From the NCBI GenBank assembly GCA_029580855.1, contig JAKPQH010000146.1:62001-126000 (forward strand): 64,000 nucleotides of DNA. The letters are read 5' to 3'. The translations under genes and the position numbers were made by a program. Each line of letters begins with the position of its first letter. Positions within the stretch are counted from its first letter, which is position 1. The notes under the pieces were generated by a model that saw only the letters and a list, made by a program, of their open reading frames with translations, searched no databases and was not told the origin of the DNA. This stretch comes from a bacterium (GTDB taxonomy: Bacteria > Methylomirabilota > Methylomirabilia > Methylomirabilales > 2-02-FULL-66-22). Positions 34,281 to 59,958 of this stretch are shown here, piece by piece.

Positions 34281-34456
34281 TCTCCCGCGCCCGTGCCGTC
34301 AGCGCCCGCAGAGGCTTGCGGACGACGGTCTCGATCTCTTGGCGGCGGGCCGTGTCCGGCGTCTTGCCCGACCCCGTCGCGATCGTCCGACGCCCGGGTG
34401 CCCTCATCGCGCCTCCCCCCTTTCCCGGGTCCGGTCGCGCACCGCCACACCGCCCC

Positions 34457-34866: not shown

Positions 34867-35844
34867 TCATCCCCGAAACAACGCCGCCGCGCGGCAGCTC
34901 GCGACCGGGTTGCGGCCGATCGCCGTCTCGTCGGAGAGCACGAAGCCCCCATAGCCGTCCGCGAGCGCATCGTAGGCGAAGCACAGCTCCGAACGCGTCG
35001 GCGCGGCGTGCTCCGTCATGTGCTCGAAGACCTGCCCCGCCAGCAGCACCGGCACGGGCATCGCGCGGACCGTCGCTGAAAACCCATGGACGGTCTCGGC
35101 CATGGCCTTCGCGCCCAGCTCGGCGCCGAGGTCGCCGCGGCACAGCCACAGCTCGTCGGCGGATTCGGCGATTCCCGCCGCCTCCGCCAGCGCCGGCCCG
35201 CGCTCGAGCTTGGCGATCAGATGCGCCGTAGAGCCGATCTGTTCCCGGTAATGGCCCATCTCCACCGCGTCCTTCACATAGGAGACGGCGTACCGGACGC
35301 CCACCATGCGCCGCGTGCAGCACAGAACGGCCCGATCGTTCTCGCCCAAGGACTCCTGCCGATGCGCCGACGCGGTGTAGGTGATCCCCTTGCGTGGACG
35401 GATCGCGCCGCCCGCGACAACACGGGCGCAAAGCGCCTCCCGGCCCTGCGTTTCCAGCACGAGGCGAAGCTTGGCGTCGTCGAGCACGATCTCGCCGCTG
35501 GATGCGGCGGCCGCGCGGAAAAAGTCGGGGTGCGGGACCGGAAGGGCGTCGGGGCGGTCCGACGAGGCCGCGCACACCAGCGTCACCCGTTCCCCCTCAA
35601 CCAGCACGCGCTCGCAGAATTGACCCAGGCGCCATTTGCTGCCCTGCAGGTCCAGGATCAGGGGTCGGGCGGTTTCCTGCGTGGCGAGAAAGCGGTCGAG
35701 ACGACCGACCCAGGACGCCAGCTGCGCAAGAGACAGATGCGAGGTGTTCAGGCGGAATCCGGTCGCCCCGGCGGCGAGCATGGCCCGCCACACCAGGTCG
35801 CCGTCGCTGCTGGGACCGAGGGTTGCGATGACCTGGTAGTCCAT
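34867..35844 (-). CDS. Pyruvate-kinase-like protein without the C-terminal domain
   Basis: 325 residues from the ATG at 35844 (an alternative ATG at 35865 adds 7 residues). It has the PK A-domain start VIATLGPSSDGDLVWRAML with GFRLNTSHLS (Arg and Asn kept). A B-domain-like insert follows (LDLQGSKWRLG to RPRKGITYT), then the catalytic segment IAKLERGPALAEAAGI with CRGDLGAELG, and SDETAIGRNPV. The usual ATQMLESM threonine segment reads AGQVFEHM. The allosteric C domain is missing, since PKs are normally about 470 residues. This is a divergent, probably specialised member, and pyruvate kinase activity should not be assumed. It lies in an operon with the KDPG-aldolase-like gene. Confidence 0.72.
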   Translation of the reverse strand: MDYQVIATLGPSSDGDLVWRAMLAAGATGFRLNTSHLSLAQLASWVGRLDRFLATQETARPLILDLQGSKWRLGQFCERVLVEGERVTLVCAASSDRPDALPVPHPDFFRAAAASSGEIVLDDAKLRLVLETQGREALCARVVAGGAIRPRKGITYTASAHRQESLGENDRAVLCCTRRMVGVRYAVSYVKDAVEMGHYREQIGSTAHLIAKLERGPALAEAAGIAESADELWLCRGDLGAELGAKAMAETVHGFSATVRAMPVPVLLAGQVFEHMTEHAAPTRSELCFAYDALADGYGGFVLSDETAIGRNPVASCRAAALFRG

Positions 35845-35871: not shown

Positions 35872-36720
35872 CTACCTGATATCCGGACCCTCGACGGGTT
35901 TCACGGGCGGCGCGGGCCGGACCGGCCGCATTCGGGCGCGGTCAATAGCCTCGACGAGCACGCGCGCTTGGCGGGTCATGGCGTCGTAGTCCCGCACCCC
36001 TCCGCCCTCCCACGCGTCATCCACCACCACCGCCGCGGCGCCCGCGCGGATGAACTCCGCGGCGTTCTCGGGCGTGATGCCCCCGGCGGCGACTACGGTG
36101 ATGTCGGGGGCCTCCCGGAGAATCTCGCGGACATATCCCGGACCCACGCGGCCCGCCGGGAAGAGCGCCACCAGGCCGGTCCCGAGACCCCACGCCTGCC
36201 CGATCTCGGTGGCGGTGAACGCCCCCGGGATCGCCAGCACGCGGCCATCCAGACAGACCCGGACCGCCTCGGGGTCCACCGTGGCCATCAGGACGAACTC
36301 GGCCCCGGCCCGGACCGCCTCGCGAACGTCCTGGGCCGCGTGGAGGCCCGCCGCGCCGATGACAACCCGGCGCGCGAACGCCGCGCGCGCGCGGCCGATC
36401 GCCTGCGGCAGCGCGCGTGTGTCCGCCTGGAGGGCCACGGCGGTTACCCCGCCGTCCCGGAGCGCCTCCACGACCGACACGGCCTCCCCCGCCTCCCGCA
36501 CGGCCACCCGGGCGACCAGGCCGGCCTTGGGGATGTGTACGATCGGATCGTCCACGACCAACCTCTCTTCGGGTGGTGGCGGCTCGGGCCGCCATCCCTC
36601 TTGAAGCGCCCACACCGCCGCCAGGGCTCCGACGGCGGCCACCGCGAACACCAGCGACGGAACCGACGCGCGGCCCGTTCGCGGCATCCGGCGCATCGCC
36701 CGCTCGACGACCCGCCTCAC
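35872..36720 (-). CDS. Membrane-anchored KDPG-aldolase-fold protein lacking the Schiff-base lysine
   Basis: 282 residues, GTG start overlapping the CoA-transferase stop (GTGA). The first 18 residues are arginine-rich, followed by one TM helix (about 21-40, LVFAVAAVGALAAVWAL), which by the positive-inside rule puts the rest outside the cytoplasm. The rest is a KDPG/KHG-aldolase barrel with AIPGAFTATEIGQAWGLG and AAGGITPENAAEFI. The Schiff-base lysine motif vKlFPA reads VALFPA, and the usual Glu in the strand after GGV is Ala (GGVTAVALQADT). It is therefore predicted to lack aldolase chemistry. A sugar-acid binding or sensing role is possible. The six-base gap to the downstream ATG at 35865 suggests coupling. 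Confidence 0.72.
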   Translation of the reverse strand: MRRVVERAMRRMPRTGRASVPSLVFAVAAVGALAAVWALQEGWRPEPPPPEERLVVDDPIVHIPKAGLVARVAVREAGEAVSVVEALRDGGVTAVALQADTRALPQAIGRARAAFARRVVIGAAGLHAAQDVREAVRAGAEFVLMATVDPEAVRVCLDGRVLAIPGAFTATEIGQAWGLGTGLVALFPAGRVGPGYVREILREAPDITVVAAGGITPENAAEFIRAGAAAVVVDDAWEGGGVRDYDAMTRQARVLVEAIDRARMRPVRPAPPVKPVEGPDIR

Positions 36721-38276
36721 GCCGCGCGCGCGAGGCCCATCCGGTCCGCCCGGAAGATCCGCGCATCCATCCGTGCGAGGTCGGGGGCGATTTTTGGCCG
36801 AAACGCCATTTGACTCAGCACGTCCTTCTCGAGGTCCACCCCGGGGGCGATCTCGGTCAACAGCAGGCCGTCCTTGGCGATCACGAGCACCGCCCGCTCC
36901 GTGATGAACTGCACGCGCTGGCCGCGCTCGGCGGCCAGGTCGCCGCTGAAAGTGATCTGCGCCACCTGCGGGACGAATTTCTTGAACCGGCCTTCCTTCG
37001 TGATGGACAGGCGGCCGTCCCCGACGGCGACCTCCAGACCGCCGGCCGTGAAGGTGCCGCAGAACGCCACGGCTTTGGCGCCCTGAGAGATGTTCACAAA
37101 GCCGCCCACGCCGGGCATCCGACCCTGGAACTTGCTGACGTTTACATTCCCGCGCTGATCGGCCTCGGCCATGCCGAGAAACGCGAGGTCCAGGCCGCCG
37201 CCGTCGTAAAAGTCGAACTGGTACCCCTGGTCCAAGACCGCCTCGGGGTTCGACGACATGCCGAACAGCACTCCCGGCGCCGGAATCCCGCCGGTGATCC
37301 CCTGCTCGATCGTCGGCGTGATCCGGTCCGCGATCCCCTCCTCGGCCGCCACCAGCGCCACACCGTCGGGCATCCCCACGCCCATGTTCAGCACCGCCTT
37401 GGGAAGACCGACCAGTTCCAGGGCAGCCCGGCGGGCGATCACCTTCCGCTCGTCCAGCGGCATGGGCGGGAGGGAGGAGACCGGGATCTTCACTTCGCCG
37501 CTGAAGGCGGGGTTATACTCGCCCGCCACGCTCTGCCACTGTTCGGGGTGGACGACGATGTAGTCCACCATCGTGTGCGGAATTTTGACCATCTTGGGGG
37601 GCAGCGTCCCGGCTTGCACCAGCCGCTTCACCTGGCAGATCACGATTCCGCCGGAGTTGCGGGTGGCCATCGCCATGGGGAGGACCTCCAGAAAAGCCGG
37701 CTCCTGCTCCAGCGTGATGTTCCCCTTCTCGTCGGCGGTCGTCCCCCGCACGAAGCACACGTTCAGCGGAAACGCGCGGTAGAACAGCCACTCGCGCCCC
37801 GCGAGGGTCACCACCTCGATCAGGTCTTCGGTGGTCCGAGAGTTGAGCCGCCCCCCCTCCACGCGGGGGTCGATGAACGTCTTGAGTCCGATGTGCGTGA
37901 CCAGGCCGGGCCGGCCGGCGGCCACCTCGCGGAGCCACTGGGACATGACCCCCTGCGGCCAGCAGTACGCCTCGATCCTGTTGTCCAGGATGAGTGTGGC
38001 GAGCTTGGGGGACATGCCGTAGTGGCCTCCGATGTCGCGGCGAATCAGACCGTCGCCCGTGAGCTGGTTGAGCCCGCTGTCCTTCCAGTCCCCGATGCCG
38101 GAGACGTGAAGCACGGTCAGGTCGCGCGGTCGGCCCGTCTCGGCGAACGCCTCGGCAAGCGCCTTGATGAGCAGATCCGGCTCCACATTGCCGCCCCCGG
38201 CCCCGTGAATGGCGAGGGTGTCGCCCGGCTTGACGAGATCGATGGCCGCGCGCGCACTGATGACCTTGTCGCTCAT
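36717..38276 (-). CDS. Family I CoA transferase, fused alpha-beta subunits
   Basis: A 519-residue protein of the acetate/3-oxoacid CoA-transferase family. The alpha-like half opens KVISARAAIDLVKPGDTLAIHGAGGGN. The beta-like half has the catalytic glutamate motif ITPTIEQGITGGIPAPG and VAFCGTFTAGGL. Such enzymes (YdiF/PCT-like) move CoA from one acyl-CoA to a free acid, probably the exit step of the catabolic array. It overlaps the KDPG-like gene by 4 bp. The acyl substrate is not predictable. Confidence 0.9.
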   Translation of the reverse strand: MSDKVISARAAIDLVKPGDTLAIHGAGGGNVEPDLLIKALAEAFAETGRPRDLTVLHVSGIGDWKDSGLNQLTGDGLIRRDIGGHYGMSPKLATLILDNRIEAYCWPQGVMSQWLREVAAGRPGLVTHIGLKTFIDPRVEGGRLNSRTTEDLIEVVTLAGREWLFYRAFPLNVCFVRGTTADEKGNITLEQEPAFLEVLPMAMATRNSGGIVICQVKRLVQAGTLPPKMVKIPHTMVDYIVVHPEQWQSVAGEYNPAFSGEVKIPVSSLPPMPLDERKVIARRAALELVGLPKAVLNMGVGMPDGVALVAAEEGIADRITPTIEQGITGGIPAPGVLFGMSSNPEAVLDQGYQFDFYDGGGLDLAFLGMAEADQRGNVNVSKFQGRMPGVGGFVNISQGAKAVAFCGTFTAGGLEVAVGDGRLSITKEGRFKKFVPQVAQITFSGDLAAERGQRVQFITERAVLVIAKDGLLLTEIAPGVDLEKDVLSQMAFRPKIAPDLARMDARIFRADRMGLARAA

Positions 38277-48074: not shown

Positions 48075-48500
48075 CTACCGTCGCGACAGGTGCAATGTCC
48101 AATCGAGGGTCAAGAGCGGCACGACAGGCTTCATTGACTCGAAAGCTGCGTCGCAATGGATGAGGACCGCCTGGTGATTGATGGCCACCGTCGCGATGAG
48201 GCAGTCCGCCGCGGTCGGCGTGATGCCTTCCCGCCGCAACCGCGCCGCAAGATTCCACGCCTGCTTCCACCACGAGACCTCGAACGGGAGACGGACGATC
48301 GGAGCAAACCATTGCAGCATGGACTCCTTGCGCTCGGTCGTCCGCAAACCCGTCATGAGCTCCATCTGTATAGCTGTCAATTCAAGCATCTGGTTGACCG
48401 CCGGATCCGAAGCAAGGAATTCATCAACGGTCCGGACGGCGCGACATCTCGCGGCTGTGGCGCGCACGCAACAGACGACGAACGGGAGCCCGGAAATCAC
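48075..48500 (-). CDS. PIN-domain (VapC-like) protein with atypical N-terminus
   Basis: 141 residues from a GTG at 48500 that overlaps the stop of the DUF499 gene (GTGA). From about residue 35 it is a clear PIN fold: TAIQMELMTGLR (Glu), ARLRREGITPTAADCLIATVA (Asp) and VLIHCDAAFESMKPV (Asp). The first strand that should hold the initial catalytic Asp (usually VDTSVW or similar) is replaced by ISGLPFVVCCVRATAARC, so one of four acidic residues is missing. It may be an inactive or degraded RNase toxin, or the N-terminus may have been rewritten by a frameshift. The coupling suggests cotranslation with the ATPase. Confidence 0.65.
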   Translation of the reverse strand: MISGLPFVVCCVRATAARCRAVRTVDEFLASDPAVNQMLELTAIQMELMTGLRTTERKESMLQWFAPIVRLPFEVSWWKQAWNLAARLRREGITPTAADCLIATVAINHQAVLIHCDAAFESMKPVVPLLTLDWTLHLSRR

Positions 48501-51262
48501 TCCACGCTTACGTTTCCCCCTAGACCCAGATCGTCCAGCGACTGACGAATGTCCTTTTCCAGATTGGCGGCTTGGTCCTGGGTTACAGTCACCGACAGAT
48601 CGATACCGATGCGCACGTCCGTTCCCGCGCGCAGCTTCGGCAGGATGCGGGTGCCGAGGCGATTCCAGAGTTCCAGCGGGATCTGGCCGCGAATCTGGAG
48701 CGTGTGGGTCGCTGTGTCGGAAACGGGTCCAGACATTGGGCCTGGCGATGAGCCGGGCCCGACCGGCGTCGGCGCGGGTGGCGGTTCCACTATGGGACCG
48801 ACGGGCGGTTCTACGACGGCGCCGGTCTTCAAGGCTTGAGCCGTCGCTTTGGTCAACAGAAAGACCTTGGCCTCGAAGGCGATCTCGTCCGGGGATACCA
48901 ATTCCTTGAACCACACACGGTCGTAGGTGCCGTCCGGGCGGTCGCCGGAGGCCAGACCGAAATCGCCGCGACTGACGAACTCGACGATTTTGCCTCTCAG
49001 GATCGCGTCGGGATCCATAAGCCGGGTGAGTGCGCCGTTGAGGAAGCTCTGCCGCAGGCTCGCGAGCGGCCACGCCCCGGACTCCTTGAGCGCCGGCGGC
49101 CAGTTGCGCTCCAGATAGCTCGCGCCGACGGACTCGTTGAGCAGCGCCTCGGCCTTGAGTGCAGCGATTACCCGCCCGCACAGGGTCTCGCCGCTGGAGG
49201 AATGTCCCGCGCCGAGGTCGATCACCTTGAGTCCGTCCGCCTCGCGCGCGTCGGCCACGACCGCAAAACGGTAGCCGCCCCACACCTCGTCCTTGGCCGT
49301 CTCTTCCGCGTCCTTCAGTTCGGCCAAAAGATCCGCCCGATCGCTCTTCTCGAACTCGCCGCCCAGCGTCCCGTCGGCGACTTCGCGCGCCACCCGTTTC
49401 CACGCCAGCCACAGCTCGACCTTCTCGCGCAGGTCGCGGCCGGGCTTCTTCAGACACCAGACCAGCGCCCCCGGATAGAGCCGTCGCGACCTACCCCGCT
49501 GGCGCGTCCACTCCACCACCTGGGCGCGCAGCGCGCCGCCACCGGACCACTCCATCTCCGGCCCGGCCACGACCAAGGCGAGCTTGGGCCGATCCGGGAT
49601 CTCCGCCGGGTCATCTTTGAGCATCTCCACCGGGATGCGCGCCCCCCGCCGAAACTCGTCCTCGACCAGCTTCCGCAGCGCGGGCTTGACCTCCGTCTCC
49701 GCATCGAGCGACGCGCGGCGGTCGCTGACCACCTTTTTCATGGTCGGCTGGTAGCCGATCCGGAAACCGTCCGGGCCCACCTTCCGAACGAAGTAGGCGC
49801 GGTCCTCCAGCGCGAAGGCGGCCGTGTCGATGGAGGTCGTGTCCAACTCGGGCTCGCCGAGGGCAAAGCGCAGCTCCGGGAGGTGCGCCACCTTGTCCGT
49901 CTGGCCCCCCGAGGACTCGAAGAGGATGGCCGATCCGACCCGCCGGTGGATGTCTCGGAGGGGGCCTTTGGTGTCGGCGTCGAGCGCCTTCGCGTGCGCC
50001 TGCTCGCCCGCGAGGTCGGCGTCGAGCGCGGCGACCAGCCGCGACTCGCCGAGCTGGCCGAGAACTACGCTGCGAAACCCCGGCTCGTTCAGCGGGGCGG
50101 AGCCCAGCGTGATGAGCGGCTCGGTGCGGGCCTTGCGGAACGCGTCCTGGGCGGCGATGGAGATCCACTGGGCCAGCATGGCCAACGTGCCCCGGGTCTG
50201 CTGGTACTGCGGGAGCGCCTGCCACTTGCGCTGGAAGACGGAGAGCGTCCCGGGATGGAACGGGTAGCAGGTCTCGAAGCGGCGCTGGAGGAACTCGCGT
50301 GCCTTGGCCTCGGTCGCGGCCGTATCCACCGCCGTCCACTCCGGCGGGAGCTGCGCGCGTCGCTCGAAACACCAGTCGCCGAACGCTTTGGCGACGTTCC
50401 TCCGGATCTTCTCGCTCCCCAGATCCTGGAAGAGCCGCCGCCGGATGACCTCGCTGATCTCCGTCTCGTCGTTGACAAGCAACGGCTTGGCGACGGCGCC
50501 CACGATTTTCACGATCTTGTCTTGCCATTCCAGGTCCCAGCCGGTCATCTCCACCTGGCTGCGCGGGAGGCTGACGACCGCCGACCGGAACCTGGTGCCG
50601 ACAAAGCCGCGCACGATGTTGTGCAGGAACGCGTGCATGGATTCCGCGAACCGCCGATGCCGGTTGAAGAAGTTCAGTAATTCGTCGAAGAGCAAGAGGA
50701 CGGGCCCATTGGCCAACCCGATGAGGCGGTTGAGGGTCTCGGTGCCGGGCGGCGCCTCCTTCGCCGCCGGCCCGAGGGCCTTCACGCCCTCGTCGCCGCC
50801 AAGTTGTCGGGCGATGTCGATCCAGGGCGTCTCGCGAAGCGGCTGGGGGTCCCAGGCGTTGCCGACGAACACCGCCACCCGGGCGGCCGGGACCGCGCCG
50901 AGCTCCGCCTCGCGGAGCAGGGCCGCCACTCCGGGCCACGCGGCCGCCGCCGGACCGCCGTTGGCCAGGTGCCAGAGCGTCGTCAGCATGTGCGTCTTCC
51001 CGCCGCCCATCTGTGTGACCAGGGTCTGAACCGGCGCGGTGTTCTGCGTCTCGCCCGCCAGGCGCCGCAACACCAACGCGGAATTGTCGCGCAGCGCCCG
51101 CGTGAAACAGGTGCGCGCGAAGAACTGGTCGGGCGTCCGGTAGTCCTCCGGGGCCGTCCCCGCGACGACCTGTTCGAGCGCGATGGCGAACTCGTCCGGG
51201 TTGAACGACCGGCCCTCGCGGACTTCCTTGCGCGGCGTGGCGATCCTGTACCAGGGATCCAT
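48497..51262 (-). CDS. DUF499-family AAA+ ATPase of a defence-type module
   Basis: A 921-residue protein opening DPWYRIATPRKEVREGRSF. Walker A is VTQMGGGKTHMLT (near residue 85), the Walker B-like segment is GPVLLLFDELLNFFNRHRR. Next come FHPGTLSVFQRKWQALPQYQ and a long C-terminal region with a Pro/Gly linker (PPAPTPVGPGSSPG) before a last beta-rich domain. DUF499 (COG1483) ATPases typically occur with DUF1156 adenine methylases and SNF2 helicases in restriction-like phage-defence loci, as here. The ATG is 2 bp after the DUF5615 stop, so the TA pair, ATPase and PIN gene form one tight operon. Confidence 0.85.
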   Translation of the reverse strand: MDPWYRIATPRKEVREGRSFNPDEFAIALEQVVAGTAPEDYRTPDQFFARTCFTRALRDNSALVLRRLAGETQNTAPVQTLVTQMGGGKTHMLTTLWHLANGGPAAAAWPGVAALLREAELGAVPAARVAVFVGNAWDPQPLRETPWIDIARQLGGDEGVKALGPAAKEAPPGTETLNRLIGLANGPVLLLFDELLNFFNRHRRFAESMHAFLHNIVRGFVGTRFRSAVVSLPRSQVEMTGWDLEWQDKIVKIVGAVAKPLLVNDETEISEVIRRRLFQDLGSEKIRRNVAKAFGDWCFERRAQLPPEWTAVDTAATEAKAREFLQRRFETCYPFHPGTLSVFQRKWQALPQYQQTRGTLAMLAQWISIAAQDAFRKARTEPLITLGSAPLNEPGFRSVVLGQLGESRLVAALDADLAGEQAHAKALDADTKGPLRDIHRRVGSAILFESSGGQTDKVAHLPELRFALGEPELDTTSIDTAAFALEDRAYFVRKVGPDGFRIGYQPTMKKVVSDRRASLDAETEVKPALRKLVEDEFRRGARIPVEMLKDDPAEIPDRPKLALVVAGPEMEWSGGGALRAQVVEWTRQRGRSRRLYPGALVWCLKKPGRDLREKVELWLAWKRVAREVADGTLGGEFEKSDRADLLAELKDAEETAKDEVWGGYRFAVVADAREADGLKVIDLGAGHSSSGETLCGRVIAALKAEALLNESVGASYLERNWPPALKESGAWPLASLRQSFLNGALTRLMDPDAILRGKIVEFVSRGDFGLASGDRPDGTYDRVWFKELVSPDEIAFEAKVFLLTKATAQALKTGAVVEPPVGPIVEPPPAPTPVGPGSSPGPMSGPVSDTATHTLQIRGQIPLELWNRLGTRILPKLRAGTDVRIGIDLSVTVTQDQAANLEKDIRQSLDDLGLGGNVSVE

Positions 51263-51264
51263 GC

Positions 51265-51624
51265 CTAGCCTCTTGGCCTGCGGCCAATCCGAATCCTGCC
51301 GGGTTGCACGACAACGAATTTACCCACGAGGGCGTCGCCGCGCCGTCTGACCATATCGAGCATCACTCTGGGAAGATCTGCCCTGAAGCGGGCGGGGAAT
51401 CGAACGAAAATCACACCTCCCGTCGCGCGCTCTTCGGAGTACACGTACCGCCCGAAATCCTTATCTTCCGTCAGGAGGATGGCTGCCTCTTGGACGGCCA
51501 TTTCGAGAACCCGTTCGTCAGGCGCCCCTCCGGCGATCTCCGATACGGCGGTGACCAGGTGCCCCTCCGCTCGAAGTGCACGCACCACGTTGAAATCGCA
51601 GCTCTCATCCGCCAGAAAACGCAT
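51265..51624 (-). CDS. DUF5615 PIN-like toxin-type protein
   Basis: 119 residues opening MRFLADESCDFNVVRALRAEGH, with LLTEDKDFGRYVY and GVIFVRF. This is the Mut7-C/PIN-like DUF5615 pattern of a putative ribonuclease, usually paired with a DUF433 antitoxin. The antitoxin gene ends 2 bp before its ATG, and its stop is 2 bp before the DUF499 ATG. Its tight embedding in the defence operon suggests that toxin and defence proteins are made together. A basic tail RIRIGRRPRG is present. Confidence 0.85.
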   Translation of the reverse strand: MRFLADESCDFNVVRALRAEGHLVTAVSEIAGGAPDERVLEMAVQEAAILLTEDKDFGRYVYSEERATGGVIFVRFPARFRADLPRVMLDMVRRRGDALVGKFVVVQPGRIRIGRRPRG

Positions 51625-51626
51625 CG

Positions 51627-51878
51627 TTAGCGCGCAGCCCGCTTTCGGGGCTTCTCCAGCAACAGCGTTTCCTCGTTCGCCACTGTGTCCGCGGCATACG
51701 CGATGGCGGCCTGAATGTCCTCTCTCGTCAGGCGCGGATAGGCGTCGAGCAAGTCGGCCTCCGTCGCACCTTCACTCAGCTTTCTGAGGAGTAGCTCAAC
51801 CGGAATCCGGGTGCGCCGGATCACCGGCTTCCCGAGCATAATCTTGGGATTCACTTCAATTCGATCGGTGACGGCCAT
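51627..51878 (-). CDS. DUF433 antitoxin
   Basis: 83 residues with the DUF433 pattern RIEVNPKIMLGKPVIRRTRIPVELLLRKLSEG (quoted in parts: GKPVIRRTRIPVELLL) and YPRLTREDIQAAIAYAAD. Members are winged-helix-like antitoxins for DUF5615 or VapC-like partners and often repress their own operon. It is the first of four tightly spaced genes (DUF433, DUF5615, DUF499, PIN), 80 bp downstream of the methylase stop. Confidence 0.88.
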   Translation of the reverse strand: MAVTDRIEVNPKIMLGKPVIRRTRIPVELLLRKLSEGATEADLLDAYPRLTREDIQAAIAYAADTVANEETLLLEKPRKRAAR

Positions 51879-51958
51879 AATCGTCCCCCTTGTGACGCAG
51901 CCTCGTGATCAACGAACCGAACGAATGTTGCCAATTATTCGTCACCTTTGGAATGCCC

Positions 51959-54900
51959 TTATTTGGGCACAGCCAAGAGCATCGCGTCAAGCAGTCGCTT
52001 TTCCTCAGAGCCCTGAGGGTACAACGCCGATAACGCATTTGCTAGACGCAGGAAGTCCGGGCCGCGGTCCTGTTCGGCCTTGAGGAGTGCCCGCAGGGCG
52101 TTGGTGCGGCCGCCGCCCTGGAGCAGCATGGCGGCGTGGACCCGATCGAGGGTCGTGGCCTCCTTTGCACCGCTGAGGCGCGGAGTACGCAGAGACTCCT
52201 CCTCTGGATTAGCTATGCGCTTAGCCCTGTGGCCTCTGCGTCTCTGCGGTGAATCCTCCCCAACCGTTGGGAAGAGTGCGAGCTGCGAACGTACCCCGAA
52301 TGCGGCGTCCTCTTCCAACTTGGTCGCGACGGCCTGTGCTCCATCCTCACCGAAGAGTTGCCTGGCGCGCTCGGCAACGGACAGGAGCCTTACGATGCCC
52401 TTCTTGGTCTCAATCACGCGGCCTTCCCATTTGGGAAGCTCGATGCCGAGCGGCTGTGCAAAGCGGCGCACCACGTCGAACACAAGAGAGAAGCCCTTCC
52501 ACCGCTGAGGCGCAGAGGACGCAGAGTCCTCGTCCTCTTCTGAATCAGGTTCGGGTTCCTCCTCTGCACTCTCTGCGTCTCTGCGGTGATCGTCCTCGTT
52601 CGTGGCCTGCAGCGTCCACAGAAAGAGCGCCGTGAGCCGCGCGTCCTCCTCCACGGCGCCTGCCGCGCCGTTACGGGCCTTGGCCTCGGCGGTACCGAGC
52701 ACCTGCGCGAGCGCGTTCCGGCCCACGACTTCCCAGACCTTCTCCAGATATTCGGCGAGCGCGACCTCGCGCCCCTCGGCCGTCTCGACCTTCGCGTATC
52801 GGCTGAAAATCTCGAGCGCCGGGCCGATGCAAGCGAAGACAAGATCCGCGCCGCGCACCCCTTCGCCCTGCAGGCGTTCCATCCAGTCACCCACACGTTT
52901 CGGCAGCTCGCGCAGGACAACGGCCCAGTCACCAATTCCGGCATCCGCCACGCGTGGGCGGCACACCAGGTGAACACTCGTTGCTAGCGCGGCGGACTCG
53001 CGGGCGCGCAGACGCGACAGCATCTCAGTAGCGATAGGCCAAGAGCCGGTGATGGTCCAACCGCCCCGGATCAGGCCGGAAAGGAGCGCCTCCCAGCCTT
53101 CTGTGGTCTTGTGGGCGAAGACGACCGCCCCGACGCCATCTTCGTGGAGCACGCGGCGGCTCTCGGCGAAGGCTTTGGCCATCGTCTCCTCGAACCAGGT
53201 GCGGTCCTTCACTCGATCGTTTTCCTGTTTGGTTTCGTCCTGCACGGCCTCGCGCGCCTTGGGTGTGAGCGGATTTGCGGGATCAAACGGATCACACAAT
53301 AGATGGTGACCCGATAGTGTCCGCTTGAGCCAGACGAGGAAGAAGTCCGAAAGGTCGGCGTAGGGCACCGCGTCGTAGTAGGGCGGGTCGGTGAACCACA
53401 CCTGCGCCGCTTGATCGGGAAGAGGGTGCCCGCGCGCATCAGCTCCCTGCACTTGCCCTGACTGAATTGCGTCCTGGGTCCAGGCTGACAACGCATCAAC
53501 CATCCTCATTGTGTCTGTTACACGGTCTTCCCAGCTTCCGGTCGACCGCGAGAGTGCAACCGCTTCGCCGAAATCCCAGGACATCGGCAAAGCCTGACGC
53601 GCGAATACATGCTCCACTTTCTCCTGATCAGCTTGCGGTCGCCAGGTCGCAAGCACCGCGTTTCTCTCTACCACGCCGCTCAAAACAAGCCCCAGCACTT
53701 CGGGGAGATCAGAGTTACTCTGTTGCCCGACTGCGTCGCCCAAGGTCAGCATTGCCACCTTCTGCCTCGCCGTGAATAGGTCGCCCCACTGGCGCATGCC
53801 GTAGCGTTGCACGCTGAACGCACGACCGGCCCCGGAGCCTCCACCAGCGGGAGTCGGCTCATCCGGCACCGGGCAGAGGCCCTGCTTCCCGCCGCGCTCC
53901 CACTGCGCCAGCAGCTTCGCAACGCGAGCCTGCGCCTTGCGCACAGCCTCGTAGTCGCGCTCGGTCGGCAGCCGGTAGTGCCGCCCCGTCTCGCCGGGTT
54001 GGAGGGTCACAACGGCCAGCATCCGCGCCCCGCCCGTGCGCCGACCTTTGGCGTCGAAAACCACGTCGGCCCCACCGCGCTGTCCGGCAAGTTGGACTCG
54101 CACCCGCTCCGGCGGGAGGACTGCGCCGCAGCAGACGCACGTCGCCTTGGCGCGCGTCACCGTGCCGGCAGGCACGTCCTTCTCCGTCTTCGGCTCGAAA
54201 ATCTCGAACTCGACGGTGGCACAGGCATCCTGCCTGTGCCCGGGCGCCGGCGTTCTCAGGTGAAGCCAAGGGTATCCCTCCGGCTCTTTGGCCAGACCCT
54301 TCTTCACCGGATTTTGCCGGACATACTCCCTCTTCTCTTCCCATTCCGCCTCATGACGAATGATATGGTCAAAGCTCTCGTCGAGCCACACGGAGCCGCG
54401 CCGCCTCAATGCCCGGTTGATCTCCTTCGCGGAAAAACCCTTGATACTGTGAAGGATGTCTCCGAGGGGGGAGCTATCGATCACCCTGAAAATCGCGTGA
54501 GCATGATCCGCCATTACGACTGCTGCATCCAGGTCGATCCGCTTCCCGTCCCAGTGCCTCATCGCCGCCAACATCACTCCCCTGGCTTCCTCGGATAGAC
54601 TGACCCCTTTACGACAGCGAAAGGTCACGAAATATGTGGCCTGCGGGGCTTGCAGGTGAGGCAGGTTCCGTTTCTGAACGCTCAGGTCGGGTGACTTCCA
54701 GGGATTCACAGGCTGGAAGCCTGTGCCATTGGGAGTGGCCTGAACAACTTTGAGCCGCAGCGCCCGCTTGCGATTCGCCTTCTTGCACAGCCAGAACGAA
54801 CGGACGAGCGGAATCTCCGCGCCGCAGTTCGGCGACTCGCAGCGCACCGTGCGTGCCCAGAGATACGCGATGGGGGTCGCGCCGTCCGGGTCCTTCGGGT

Positions 54901-55543
54901 AAAGGTCCGCCAGCTCCTTCTCCGCCTCCTCCTTGATCTTCCTGCCAACTCTTCGGAGTTCATCCGCCAATGATTCTGCGCCCTCCGCGCCTCTGCGGTG
55001 CGCTTCTCGCGGGATATCCTCCAGCATCACTTTGAGAATCAGGCACGCGACTGGATTGAGATCGCTCGCAAAGGCTTCGCAGCCGACGCGTAGCGCCTCC
55101 AGCGGGATCGAACCACCCCCGGCGAAGGGGTCAACGACCAAAGGAGTTTCCTCGGGGTGCGCGGCCTTCACCAGGCCACGGCCCACTCTGAGATAGAGCG
55201 GGTCGGACGCGACATCCCAGTTGGCGAAATCTCCAATGAACGAGAGCAGCGACCGCCGCAACTCTTCATCCGTCGTCCCTGGCCGCGTCCAGGTTGTCAT
55301 CGCCTCCGAAAGCAGCTCTCGCGCCTTCGCCTTGAATTCGACGGGGCAGAGGGAATCGCCTGGATCGGGCAAGAGCAAAGCAAGCAGCATCGCCCGACAA
55401 GCTGCCAGCGGCCGCCGCGCCCACCAGAGGTGCAGGGTCGAGGGGTGCCCATGCCGGATGGACTTCTCCCGCGCCGCGTGCTTTGACACCACGGCGATCG
55501 GGAAGTCCACCTCGGCGAGCCGCTTGCATTCCTTCGGAATCAT
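51959..55543 (-). CDS. DUF1156 adenine-specific DNA methylase with in-frame mobile-element insertions
   Basis: A 1194-residue methylase of the DUF1156/COG1743 type. The N-terminal DUF1156 segment is [15 protein letters not shown] with [17 protein letters not shown]. The SAM motif is [17 protein letters not shown] (about residue 140), and the zinc-ribbon halves are [12 protein letters not shown] and [13 protein letters not shown]. The catalytic motif is [18 protein letters not shown] (about 720). Residues about 270-443, exactly between the two zinc-ribbon halves, are a REP-RAYT transposase element in frame with the host. Three palindromic repeat segments are also translated (near 185, 985-1014 and 1098-1125). 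Family members without these would be about 950 residues. Whether the enzyme still folds is open. It probably modifies DNA in the defence system. Confidence 0.85.
52168..52251. repeat. Palindromic repeat E1 inside the methylase gene
   Basis: CACCGCTGAGGCGCGGAGTA at the left end, and an inverted GCAGAGGC/GACGCAGAG arm ending CTCTGCGTCTCTGCGGTG at the right. It is read through in the methylase frame as [11 protein letters not shown] to RTPRLSGAK, a different frame from E2-E4. Confidence 0.8.
52501..52588. repeat. Palindromic repeat E2 inside the methylase gene
   Basis: ACCGCTGAGGCGCAGAGGAC to CTCTCTGCGTCTCTGCGGTG, inverted arms about 27 bases long around a central about 35 bases. It is translated as [13 protein letters not shown] to SASSAPQRW without breaking the frame. 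Confidence 0.8.
54218..54727 (-). mobile_element. REP-RAYT element (HUH Y1 transposase domain with flanking REP hairpins)
   Basis: A segment of about 510 bp bounded by GGCACAGGCA-TCC-TGCCTGTGCC (54218-54240, perfect 10 bp stem) and CACAGGCT-GGA-AGCCTGTG (54707-54725, 8 bp stem). Between them the minus frame encodes a REP-associated tyrosine transposase: [22 protein letters not shown] motif [41 protein letters not shown] and the tyrosine motif [13 protein letters not shown]. The translated hairpins give the familiar GTGFQPV and HRQDACAT peptides. It has no own start or stop and is part of the methylase ORF. Confidence 0.88.
54974..55000. repeat. Half-palindrome repeat E3 inside the methylase gene
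   Basis: TTCTGCGCCCTCCGCGCCTCTGCGGTG, one arm of the E-type repeat, translated as [11 protein letters not shown]. The opposite arm is missing or eroded. Confidence 0.65.
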
Positions 55544-55663
55544 GAGGTTTCCCTGACCAAGCGTTTTAGACAGGCAATGGCGCCCCGCAGACTTTCCGAA
55601 CGCGCGGCTGCCACGTTGGGACGCCAGCGCGTCTACATGGGCGAGGGGACGTTGTCACCTTAA

Positions 55664-56251
55664 TCACTTTATCTCGCTTCCCGCTCGCATGCCGGTTCGC
55701 GATCCCAGCCGTTTCACCCGGTAGACGGGCCGCGCCTCCTCGACCTTGAACCCGATGGAGCGTCGCGTCCTCTCCGGCGGTGCCATGAGCTGGCGGATGG
55801 CATCGAAGACGGCGCGAAATTGGGCGTCGTACCGCTTTTCAAGTTCTACCAGTTTCCGAGCCAGGTCCTCATGCGATGCAAGGATGCGGCGCAGCCGGAC
55901 GAACGCGCGCATGATTTCGATATTGACACGGATGGCTTGCGGACTGTTCAGGATGCTGGAGAGCATGGCGACGCCTTGTTCGGTGAAGGCGTATGGCAGC
56001 GCGCGACGGAGACCGCCCCAACTTGAAGTCACAAATTGTGACTTCAAGTTGCCGAACTCATCGCGCGAGAGCTGGAACATGAAGTCGTCGGGGAAGCGCG
56101 CCGCGTTGCGCTTGACGGCCTGCACCAGCACCTTGGGTTGGACGCCATACAATTCTGCCAGATGTGGGCTGAGCGTCACTCGCTGGCCGCGAAGAACAAA
56201 GATCCTTGTCTCGACTCTCGCAGCGAGATTCGCCGCTAGGGCTTTACTCAT
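55664..56251 (-). CDS. ORF6N-domain protein
   Basis: 195 residues from ATG 56251 ([20 protein letters not shown]). The ORF6N domain covers about residues 15-110: [36 protein letters not shown] and [17 protein letters not shown]. It continues with [16 protein letters not shown] and a coiled-coil tail ([17 protein letters not shown]). ORF6N/KilA-N-like proteins are of phage origin and are presumed DNA binders. It sits between the helicase and the methylase, transcribed in the same direction. A second, broken ORF6N copy lies directly upstream. Confidence 0.85.
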
Positions 56252-56366
56252 GCGCCGGCCTCCCGAGGACGATCGAGGGCATTGCGACCCCTTGCTCGGT
56301 GAGCGCGTAGGGCAGAAACGGCGAAAACCGGAGCGTCCTGAAGTGATCACAAACTGTGATCACCCC
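56244..56366 (-). pseudogene. Remnant of a second ORF6N gene
   Basis: The minus frame ending at 56244 reads [20 protein letters not shown] then [15 protein letters not shown] and stops. This equals the conserved core of the neighbouring ORF6N protein ([17 protein letters not shown]). Only about 40 residues remain and there is no start codon of its own. Its stop overlaps the intact copy's start, so the intact gene probably replaced or followed a tandem paralogue. Confidence 0.6.
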
Positions 56367-56448
56367 GCCCACCACCGGAGGCAGCGTACGGTGGGACCGC
56401 ATGCGCACTCCTGCCTGGCGAATTCCCTCTGCGCGAATCGTCCGGCCG

Positions 56449-59400
56449 TCAATCTGCGTCCTGCTCCATCGGACAACTACCCGGCTCTTCCCGCACTCGC
56501 ATAGGCTCGCGCGCCGCATCCACACTGAGCCAGTAGTGATCCACCTTCCTGACCTCGTGCCACGAGAGGCTCGCAGGATCACGATAGAGGTTGACGCGCG
56601 GATGGCCTCCACAATTTGTCACGACGTAGAGCCAGTAACAATCCCGCCGATCCTCGGCCACGCGGCGTTCGTTGGGAGTGAGAAGAATAGTTCCTGTTTC
56701 CGCACCGAGCCCCTTGACCTCGATGAGGCGCAGCTCACCGGAGGATAGATCGAGGCTCGTGACGTCGTAGCCGAGGTTCTTCTCATGAACGTCGTACACC
56801 TGGCGGCCCTGGGCCCGCTCGTAATCCATTACCGTCTGCATGGCGATCGCTTCGGTCTCCGGGTCCGACTGGAGGCGGCGCACTTCCGGGGCTTCCCGTT
56901 CCGGGTGCGGCAGGACAAGCACGCTGGTAAGGCGCGTGACAGCCTGGAGCGAGAGCCCGCGCTGCCGCTCCAGCTCCTGCCGGCGGCGGTCACGGCGGGC
57001 GAGCAACTCCGCATGGCGGCTCTCGGCGACGGCAAGCCGCCCTTCGGCCCCCTGGATCTTCCGCTCCACGTCCAGGGAGGCGCGGCCGATCTCCTCATCC
57101 GCCCGCTGGAGGAGTTCCGTCAGCGACACTTCCACGTGCGCGGCGATCCGCTCTACCTCGGCCAGCCGCTCCTTGCGCGTTTCGTCGAGGAAGGCGCTCA
57201 GGACCGTCTGGTGGAGCCACTCCACCGCCTCGGGCGCCGAGGCTACCGCGGGGAGGCTCGCGGGCGTGGCGGCCGGCGTGAAGTTCCCCAGGATGCCGGG
57301 CTCCACAAGATGGTATTCACCGCAGAGGCGCGGAGTTCGCTGAGCTTCAATAATGTTCTTCTCTGCGCCCTCTGTGCCTCCGCGGTGAGTCCCGATCTCC
57401 ACGGCGAAGAGGCGCTCGTGGATCGTGTTGCCCAGGCCGTCCACGACTCGGGCGCGGTAGAAATCCATCCGCGCCGGCTGCTCGTGGGCGAGGGAGTAGT
57501 AGACGGCGCCGCTCGTGAAGGGCTCGGCCGCACGACCGCTTGTGTGGCGGCGAACCGCCTCGAACAGCGGGTGGCCTGGTGTGACCCATTCGAGGGTGTG
57601 CTTTTCCGCGGTCTCCCGCTCCGTCGAGCAGCGGGGGTATCGGACGGCCAGCGCGGGGAGGCGCCAGTCCGGTTCCCGCTCATATTTTCGCAGAGCGGTC
57701 GGCGTCCGGCCCGGGTCGAAGGCGTGCGGGAGGCTCGGTACGGGTTTCAGGTCGAGGGTCGCGTAGGGGGCGGCATCGCGGAGGAACCGGGCGATGGTCT
57801 CGGGGACGACGCGGCGCTCCTGCGCCAGGGCCCGCCGCTCCACCAACATGGCCAGGTTCAGCTTCTTGGAGGCGAGGCCCTCCAGGGCGTTCTGGCAAAT
57901 GGCGCGGAACTGGCCCTCATCCACGCGGCGGAGCAGGCGATCCTCCAGGTCGGCGTCGCCGAGCTTCCCCGCGTAATAATCCCGGAGGACCCGCTCGACA
58001 TGCGCGGAGGGCAAGACCTCGCCCACGACGTTGAAAACGGCGTCGTCGTCCAGGGCGTCCCGGATCTCCTGGAGTTTCTCCAGGAGGCGCTGGAGGACCT
58101 TGCCCTCGATGGTGTTGGTCGCCACGAAGTTGAAAATGAGGCAATCCTCGACCTGGCCGTACCGGTGGATGCGGCCCATCCGCTGCTCCAGCCGGTTTGG
58201 GTTCCAGGGGATGTCGTAGTTGACGAGGATGTGGCAGACCTGGAGGTTGATGCCCTCCCCGGCCGCTTCGGTGGCCACGAGGATCTGAATCCCGCCCTCG
58301 CGGAACTGCTGCTCGGCGTGGAGCCGGGTGCCAGGATCATTCCGCGAGCCGGCCTTCATCCCGCCGTGGATACACCCGACGGTGAAACCCCAGCTCTTGA
58401 GCCGCTCCAAGAGGTAGTCCAGCGTGTCCTTGAATTCGGTGAAGATCAGGAGCCGCTTCGTCGGGTGGTCGAAGAAGCCTTCCTCCTGGAGGAGCGCCTT
58501 GAGGCGGGAGAGCTTGGCCTCGGCCCCGGCCTCTTCTGCCGCCTTGGCCTTCTCGGCGAGGGCGCGGAGGGCCTTGATCTCCTCCTGGACCTCCTGGGCG
58601 TTCCCGGCCAGGGTGATCGCTTCGATGACCGATTCCAGCCGCTCCCGCTCGGCCTCCTCCATCTCCTCCAGCTCTTCTATGTCGGGAAGGTCGGGAGGCG
58701 CCGTGCGTGCTATTTCCTGGGCGCGTTTCAGCCCTTCGGCGAGGCGCCTGGCGCGGTTCTCCAGGCTGTGGCGGAGGGCGTGGGTGCTCGAGGCCAGCCG
58801 GCGCTGGTAAAGGGCCATGAGGAAGCCGACGGCCAAGGCGCGGGGGTCGTCCCCCTGGGCGGCGGCCTTGGCGCTCTGCTGCTTCACGAAGCGGGTGACC
58901 TCGCGGTAAAGGTCGAACTCCGCATGGTCGATCTGGAACTCCACCGTCTTCGGGATCCGCTTGGTGAAGATCTTTTTGGCCGCCCAGGTCCCGTCGGTTT
59001 GCCGCTCTGGGAAGTAGACCATGGCCTCCTTGGTCCGGCGGAGGTAGAACGGAGCCCGGTTCCGCTCCATGGCCTGACGGATGGATCGGATGTCCGCATA
59101 GGCGTCGGCGTCGAGGAGCTGGAGGAAGAGGCTGAAGTTTTCTGGATCGCCCTTGTGGGGGGTGGCGGTGAGCAGGAGAAGATGATCGGCGGTTTCCCGG
59201 AGTAGCTCCCCCAGGCGGTAGCGGAGGCTCTTGTGTGATTCGTCCGAAGCGGACATCCGGTGCGCTTCGTCCACGATGACGAGGTCCCAGCGGACCTGGC
59301 GGAGGCCCGGGAGGATATCCTGGCGCTTGGCGAGGTCGAGGGAGGTGATGACGCGCTTCTGCTCCAGCCACTGGTTGACGCCGAACTGCTCCTTGATGTC

Positions 59401-59958
59401 CTGCCCCTTCAGGACGACGAACTGGGCGGTGAACTTCTCCTTCAGCTCGCGCTGCCACTGGAAGGCCAGGTTGGCCGGGCACACGATGAGAATCCGCTCG
59501 GCGAGGCCGCGCAGCTCCAGCTCGCGCAGGAGGAGGCCCGCCATGATGGTCTTGCCTGCCCCGGCGTCATCGGTGAGGAGAAAGCGGACCCGGGCGAGTT
59601 TCAGGAGGTAGTCATAGACGGCTTCCAGTTGGTGCGGCAGAGGATCAACCCGGGAGATCGAGAGGCCGAAGTAGGGATCGAACTCGTACGCGATCCCCAG
59701 GGCGTAGGCCTGGAGGCCCAGGCGCAAGAGTGTGCCGTCCCCGGTGAACGTGTGAGTGAGACCGCGGACCCGGAGCTGGGCGAGGTCTTGTGCGGTGAGT
59801 ATGACGCTGCGGAACTTCTCGGTCTGGACCCCGACCAGGCCGACCGTCCAACGATCCGAACCGGCCGGCCGGATGGTTTCGACGCGCATGGGCTCGTTGA
59901 AGAGCGCGCCCTCGACGATCTGACCGGGGTCCAGGGGGAGCGATGGAGAGGGGTTCAT
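56449..59958 (-). CDS. SNF2-family helicase with DUF3883-like C-terminus (DrmD-like)
   Basis: A 1169-residue protein. The N-terminal region is EFDPYFGLSISRVDPLPHQL; helicase motifs are DDAGAGKTIMAGLLL (Walker A), DEAHRMSA (motif II), LLTATPHKGDPENF (III) and ATEAAGEGINLQVC with RMGRIHRYGQ (V, VI). Coiled coils occur near 440-490 and 930-1010. The end resembles the nuclease-like DUF3883 domain: GYDVTSLDLSSGELRLIEVK with LLTPNERRVAEDR. Organisation and motifs match the DrmD helicase of class 1 DISARM. DrmA, DrmB and DrmC are not in the window. A translated palindromic repeat (E4) lies near residue 865. It is the promoter-proximal large gene of the island. Confidence 0.88.
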   Translation of the reverse strand: MNPSPSLPLDPGQIVEGALFNEPMRVETIRPAGSDRWTVGLVGVQTEKFRSVILTAQDLAQLRVRGLTHTFTGDGTLLRLGLQAYALGIAYEFDPYFGLSISRVDPLPHQLEAVYDYLLKLARVRFLLTDDAGAGKTIMAGLLLRELELRGLAERILIVCPANLAFQWQRELKEKFTAQFVVLKGQDIKEQFGVNQWLEQKRVITSLDLAKRQDILPGLRQVRWDLVIVDEAHRMSASDESHKSLRYRLGELLRETADHLLLLTATPHKGDPENFSLFLQLLDADAYADIRSIRQAMERNRAPFYLRRTKEAMVYFPERQTDGTWAAKKIFTKRIPKTVEFQIDHAEFDLYREVTRFVKQQSAKAAAQGDDPRALAVGFLMALYQRRLASSTHALRHSLENRARRLAEGLKRAQEIARTAPPDLPDIEELEEMEEAERERLESVIEAITLAGNAQEVQEEIKALRALAEKAKAAEEAGAEAKLSRLKALLQEEGFFDHPTKRLLIFTEFKDTLDYLLERLKSWGFTVGCIHGGMKAGSRNDPGTRLHAEQQFREGGIQILVATEAAGEGINLQVCHILVNYDIPWNPNRLEQRMGRIHRYGQVEDCLIFNFVATNTIEGKVLQRLLEKLQEIRDALDDDAVFNVVGEVLPSAHVERVLRDYYAGKLGDADLEDRLLRRVDEGQFRAICQNALEGLASKKLNLAMLVERRALAQERRVVPETIARFLRDAAPYATLDLKPVPSLPHAFDPGRTPTALRKYEREPDWRLPALAVRYPRCSTERETAEKHTLEWVTPGHPLFEAVRRHTSGRAAEPFTSGAVYYSLAHEQPARMDFYRARVVDGLGNTIHERLFAVEIGTHRGGTEGAEKNIIEAQRTPRLCGEYHLVEPGILGNFTPAATPASLPAVASAPEAVEWLHQTVLSAFLDETRKERLAEVERIAAHVEVSLTELLQRADEEIGRASLDVERKIQGAEGRLAVAESRHAELLARRDRRRQELERQRGLSLQAVTRLTSVLVLPHPEREAPEVRRLQSDPETEAIAMQTVMDYERAQGRQVYDVHEKNLGYDVTSLDLSSGELRLIEVKGLGAETGTILLTPNERRVAEDRRDCYWLYVVTNCGGHPRVNLYRDPASLSWHEVRKVDHYWLSVDAAREPMRVREEPGSCPMEQDAD
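57318..57387. repeat. Palindromic repeat E4 inside the helicase gene
   Basis: CACCGCAGAGGCGCGGAGTT at one end and GCGCCCTCTGTGCCTCCGCGGTG at the other, inverted to each other. It is read in frame as THRGGTEGAEKN to RTPRLCGEYH within the helicase, the same translation frame as E2 and E3. Confidence 0.8.

Follow-up and report, generated by a model that had tools for sequence, protein, structure and literature searches.

The window, a 64,000-nucleotide stretch from a member of the Methylomirabilota, encodes a protein that by its sequence belongs to the KDPG/KHG aldolase family (PF01081), is predicted to keep the family's barrel fold, has lost the catalytic lysine together with the other conserved pocket side chains, and carries a putative N-terminal membrane anchor. 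Our best explanation, held with about even confidence, is that a soluble aldolase gave rise to a membrane-anchored pseudoenzyme specific to this lineage. The features on which this reading draws are collected in Table 1.

Table 1. Features of the aldolase-like gene and its surroundings (window coordinates)
Feature	Position	Strand	Basis
Upstream CoA-transferase, same operon	36717..38276	-	orthologues 80-86% in three same-genus genomes
Membrane-anchored KDPG-aldolase-like pseudoenzyme ORF (putative)	35872..36720	-	282 aa, GTG, 4-base overlap
Arg-rich N-terminus, residues 1-19, predicted cytoplasmic	36664..36720	-	sequence, positive-inside rule
Single hydrophobic helix, residues 20-40, predicted signal anchor	36601..36663	-	Kyte-Doolittle 2.13, AlphaFold helix
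Pro/Glu-rich linker, residues 41-58	36547..36600	-	sequence; low pLDDT at 51-54
AGAGG, Shine-Dalgarno-like, 6 bases before internal GTG	36562..36566	-	resembles site before kduI, same operon
GTG codon 56, alternative start, aligns with start of soluble homologues	36553..36555	-	sequence comparison
(beta/alpha)8 barrel, KDPG-aldolase type, residues 59-236	36013..36546	-	Pfam, PDB sequence matches, AlphaFold, Foldseek
Ala96 replacing catalytic Glu45	36433..36435	-	alignment
Ala185 replacing Schiff-base Lys133	36166..36168	-	alignment
Ala212 replacing Thr161	36085..36087	-	alignment
Asp234-Asp235 replacing Gly183/Ser184 phosphate loop	36016..36021	-	alignment
Pro-rich C-terminal tail, residues 265-282	35875..35928	-	common with catalytic sister orthologue

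Gene structure and fold

The reading frame is complete, with a GTG start at 36720 and a stop at 35872, and the start shares four bases (GTGA) with the end of the upstream CoA-transferase gene, whose stop codon is TGA. Residues 65-233 match the Pfam Aldolase family (E 3.7e-20; 72.6 bits against a curated cut-off of 27.8), which rules out a chance open frame as the source of the barrel. No curated NCBIfam cut-off was reached, the best score being 100.5 bits against 238, with TIGR01182 at 98 against 156. AlphaFold, supplied with 29 natural sequences, predicts an Eda-type (beta/alpha)8 barrel with pLDDT mostly 94-98, preceded by a separate helix at residues 20-40 and a loose linker. Foldseek searches with the model rank KDPG aldolases first, with a TM-score of 0.90 to the T. 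maritima enzyme, and by sequence the closest solved structures are those of KDPG aldolases and of nanoparticles whose design was based on these enzymes. The KDPG-aldolase fold proposed in the first-pass annotation, made from the DNA letters alone, is thus upheld by family match, model and structural search.

Loss of the active site

The window protein was aligned with 37 homologues, comprising E. coli Eda and 36 others; the residues replaced are given in E. coli Eda numbering. The Schiff-base Lys133 is replaced by Ala185, giving VALFPA where (v/i)K(l/v/f)FPA is usual, and the general base Glu45 is replaced by Ala96; both catalytic residues are kept in 37/37 other homologues, so that the two losses called in the first-pass annotation stand. 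Further replacements affect Thr73 (Gly125), Pro94 (Ala146) and Thr161 (Ala212, PTGG becoming AAGG), two aspartates occupy the phosphate loop (GG/S), and Gly72 and the R22-equivalent are also lost. All six conserved pocket side chains (E45, K133, T73, P94, T161 and the R22-equivalent) have gone, against 8 of the 34 other conserved columns (Fisher p 8e-4), and the scaffold invariants G40, G70, A88, G114, E120, G128, F135, P136, G142, G162 and G163 are kept.

Only two lysines are present: K65, which immediately precedes strand 1, and K274, in the tail. A Schiff-base lysine shifted to another position, an outcome that the first-pass annotation itself set against its proposal, is ruled out because neither of these lies in the barrel. 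With the Schiff-base lysine, Glu45, T73/P94/T161 and the GG/S loop of a functional class I KDPG aldolase all missing, the sequence excludes class I aldolase chemistry.

Compared with the KDPG/KHG aldolases (Eda, PF01081; E. coli Eda and T. maritima TM0066, PDB 1wa3), the window protein shares the barrel fold, the FPA motif, the phosphate-site GG and E120-type scaffold residues; it differs in lacking the Schiff-base lysine, the glutamate base and T73/P94/T161, in the DD of its phosphate loop, and in the added N-terminal anchor. An engineered K133Q/T161K KDPG aldolase (PDB 1fwr), found among the Foldseek matches, likewise lacks Lys133 but carries a lysine moved to position 161, where the window protein has alanine. 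A second point of comparison is the class II aldolase/adducin domain, in which an aldolase fold without catalysis is widely conserved and serves a known binding role (PMC12599920). Fold retention with loss of catalytic residues is common to both, whereas the adducin domain derives from the other aldolase class and is set apart by that binding role and conservation.

Genomic context and the sister orthologue

The operon in the window encodes a TRAP transporter (DctPQM), KduI/IolB-like and KduD-like proteins, a GFO/IDH protein, an SDR and the CoA-transferase. The sugar-acid setting suggested at first reading is borne out by the KduI/IolB-like and KduD-like proteins and the TRAP transporter. An IS110/IS116-family transposase ORF (PF02371; 45357-46202, minus strand), possibly partial, adjoins the TRAP DctP gene. 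A protein of about 324 aa encoded at 34867-35841 (minus strand) comprises the pyruvate-kinase barrel only (PF00224, 116 bits), without the C-terminal domain; it has the pyruvate-kinase motifs LGPSS, RLNTSH, KLERGPAL, RGDLG and PTRSE, and its sister orthologue is 67% identical.

The sister genome, from the same genus, matches Ca. Methylomirabilota LacPavin_0419_WC70L_MAG_65_10; as far as the CoA-transferase its operon has the gene order of the window, at 71-89% identity. There the CoA-transferase is followed, in order, by a second TRAP transporter, a soluble aldolase of 232 aa that has every catalytic residue and lacks a helix, and a DsbA gene. The second TRAP transporter between CoA-transferase and aldolase is missing in the window. 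Both aldolase-family proteins end in a Pro-rich C-terminal tail followed by the stop (RPVPSAPPIKPIEGPDTR in the sister, RPVRPAPPVKPVEGPDIR in the window). The sister aldolase is the likely orthologue of the window gene because of the shared tail, the highest identity and the synteny; the tree gives no supported grouping of the two. The pair share the tail, the operon region and about 43% identity, whereas the sister protein is soluble, has a full active site and stands beside a second TRAP transporter.

Elsewhere in the window's genome, no close copy of the second-TRAP DctP or of DsbA was found, in searches that lacked one positive control, the query's source genome lying outside those searched. 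At 34303-34371 (minus strand), a short ORF with no Pfam match contains a 23-residue match (70%) to the sister DsbA/ScsC-like protein, probably a relic of a lost DsbA gene. In a third same-genus genome, the stretch just past the CoA-transferase (L080, G005:C30, 8509-8700, minus strand) resembles by eye the C-terminus of a TRAP DctM, FPGIVLLVPRLLVPTWV, and is possibly a relic of the second TRAP transporter at the same spot. The window's genome keeps two Lys-bearing PF01081 proteins, a classic Eda and one adjoining a KDG-kinase-like gene, and aldolase function is therefore probably covered.

Rate of evolution

Identity between the window protein and the sister aldolase is about 43% (40-44%), compared with 63-89% for the neighbouring genes: DctP 89, DctM 89, SDR 86, CoA-transferase 86, KduD 82, KduI 82, GFO 71, pyruvate-kinase-like 67 and lytic transglycosylase 63. 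With the majority of informative outgroups, relative-rate counts assign 48-53 private changes to the window protein against 12-21 (chi-square 11-24). No other branch of the tree is as long as its own (1.94 vs 0.55), and the tree does not settle its nearest neighbour. Differences from the sister reach 31% at codon position 2, against 6-16% in the neighbours, and roughly 36% at position 1. In every gene the fourfold sites are close to saturation (p about 0.42-0.51), so dS is not usable. GC1 and GARP content are higher than in the orthologue. These comparisons indicate a strongly accelerated gene, and we take the pattern to mean that constraint was relaxed and redirected on a protein whose frame is still maintained, or was so until recently.

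A different reading, which we regard as possible if clearly not the more probable, is that the gene is in decay: its catalytic function would have been lost recently with the transporter, little or no selection would act on it, and the frame would be open through short time and high GC. The strong acceleration, the raised GC1 and GARP, the missing second TRAP transporter, the reduction of DsbA to a 23-aa match and the presence of the form in one genome only are all consistent with decay. Against it stand 282 codons without a stop or frameshift, the retention of fold-defining residues and of a non-catalytic tail, the four-base overlap with the upstream gene, the ordered signal anchor and linker, and a divergence by codon position that is still ordered 3 > 1 > 2. 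In simulations of 100-200 neutral substitutions, no stop arose about half the time (P about 0.5 at this GC), which makes a lack of stops by itself a weak argument; frameshifts would be expected over the same span, under an indel:substitution ratio that was assumed, not measured.

Membrane anchor and start codon

The hydrophobic segment has a mean Kyte-Doolittle value of 2.13 over 19 residues and follows an N-terminus of net charge about +6, as in a bitopic signal anchor with one N-terminal hydrophobic helix and a positive flank. Under the positive-inside rule, a positive N-terminal flank places the following domain, here the barrel, outside the cytoplasm. The window protein is therefore predicted to be anchored, probably in the inner membrane, with an external barrel; cleavage of the helix as a signal peptide, instead of its staying as an anchor, is possible. 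The Arg-rich start and single transmembrane helix of the first-pass annotation are recovered as a predicted N-in/C-out helix.

The origin of the helix was considered in several ways. Among random open 55-codon stretches, matched for length and dinucleotide make-up, equal hydropathy occurred in 2.5e-4, and in 5e-5 together with a comparable positive N-terminus, which makes a chance helix unlikely. Derivation from the C-terminus of TRAP DctM was rejected, the alignment being no better than shuffles; in the sister genome, DctM2 and the aldolase lie in the same frame, 24 bases apart. Comparison with other proteins of the genus gave chance-level matches only, and no anchor is present in the sister orthologue or in any other locus inspected. 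By codon usage, the true frame is the best of six for the first 55 codons, narrowly, with the antisense close; the stretch is too short for this to prove translation.

Two candidate starts are available: GTG1, coupled to the upstream gene, and GTG56. Export, as first proposed, stands as an orientation predicted by helix and charge, but a protein initiated at GTG56, a codon preceded by a good ribosome-binding site, would be soluble and cytoplasmic. On this account, which we consider unlikely though, with decay, one of the two serious rivals, the upstream codons would be a leader or yield a minor product, and the dead barrel might, for example, form mixed trimers with active aldolase. The AGAGG six bases ahead, as before kduI, and the match of GTG56 to the start position of soluble homologues fit such a product; KDPG aldolases form trimers, and the genome has two Lys-bearing paralogues. 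Yet the upstream stretch is open and coupled to the gene before it, the anchor that it encodes is a textbook one with a chance of about 5e-5, and the paralogues, at about 25% identity, are too distant for mixed trimers to be likely. We infer translation from the first GTG.

Distribution and possible roles

Across 95 genomes of the class, a threshold of E <= 1e-20 leaves two matches only, the sister aldolase and an aldolase from the same order (33%), and neither is anchored. Two peptide patterns, run against 84,980 species genomes in a scan that is not exhaustive, returned 29 loci, one of them in the sister genome; the other 28, on inspection, lack an N-terminal hydrophobic helix and all keep the lysine and glutamate. 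The combination of a transmembrane helix with a lysine-less KDPG-aldolase domain, for which the first-pass annotation had proposed a database search, was thus found neither among the relatives at E <= 1e-20 in the 95 class genomes nor among the 28 loci inspected. Viral contigs contained no relatives of the window protein, and a search of the literature on KDPG-aldolase pseudoenzymes or membrane-anchored forms found nothing relevant. The anchored dead form is known so far from one MAG.

That the barrel, moved outside on its anchor, was recruited without catalysis to the neighbouring system for sugar-acid uptake, as its periplasmic domain for binding or docking, is improbable in our assessment. 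We rate as highly improbable the proposal of the first-pass annotation, an exported protein that senses or binds KDPG, keto-deoxy acids or uronates. The retained barrel, the predicted outward orientation and the operon with KduI/IolB-like and KduD-like proteins and a TRAP transporter are compatible with it; however, the idea is weakened because the carboxylate and phosphate ligand residues have gone along with the catalytic pair (R22-equivalent, T73, P94, T161 and the GG/S loop, now with two aspartates). Moreover, no conserved new pocket is demonstrable, the anchored form has no orthologues, the genomes searched yielded no family of this kind, and the gene exists as one rapidly evolving copy. 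Scarcely credible is an active enzyme of another kind: barrels of the KDPG-aldolase superfamily host many activities and there are weak local matches to ThiE, PRAI and NanE, but these fall below cut-off and do not extend beyond the common GG phosphate-site region, and there is no conserved candidate catalytic cluster.

Other features of the window

A Hma-type defence locus was identified by PADLOC at 48497-59958 (minus strand), comprising an HmaC-like ATPase, an HmaB-like DUF1156 adenine methylase, a PDC-S05-type protein and an HmaA-like SNF2 helicase. The HmaB-like ORF (51959-55543, minus strand) contains, at residues about 290-430, an in-frame REP/IS200-type transposase-like stretch, with Y1_Tnp just under cut-off at residues 333-410. 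The methylase ORF remains open at 1194 aa despite this stretch, which is possibly an in-frame insertion or domain capture.

Proposed origin and implications

We propose that the ancestor of the membrane-anchored pseudoenzyme was a soluble class I KDPG/KHG-type aldolase, the catalytic form of which would survive in the sister genome beside the second TRAP transporter. This aldolase may have lost its job once that transporter was lost; the pocket residues would then have eroded, with the barrel scaffold and C-terminal tail staying, and a signal-anchor helix and Pro-rich linker would have come before the domain, in frame with the operon. The sequence losses, the intact frame, the predicted fold, the synteny and the acceleration are documented above; we infer the topology and this order of events, and likewise a continued importance of the protein to the cell. 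The product would sit in the inner membrane with its barrel outside the cytoplasm and would perform no aldol chemistry; any remaining role would be non-catalytic, as an oligomeric scaffold or in partner binding. Weighing against this explanation are the lack of a second genome with the anchored form, the well-placed ribosome-binding site of GTG56, and the raised GC1 and GARP, which fit drift.

If the gene is merely decaying, it matters little. If the protein is translated and proves stable, it would offer a clean natural example of how an aldolase of central metabolism becomes a membrane-anchored pseudoenzyme, and the catalytic ancestor kept at the same locus in a sister species would make the evolutionary steps reconstructable. 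A PF01081 match alone should not lead to the annotation of the window gene as an aldolase.
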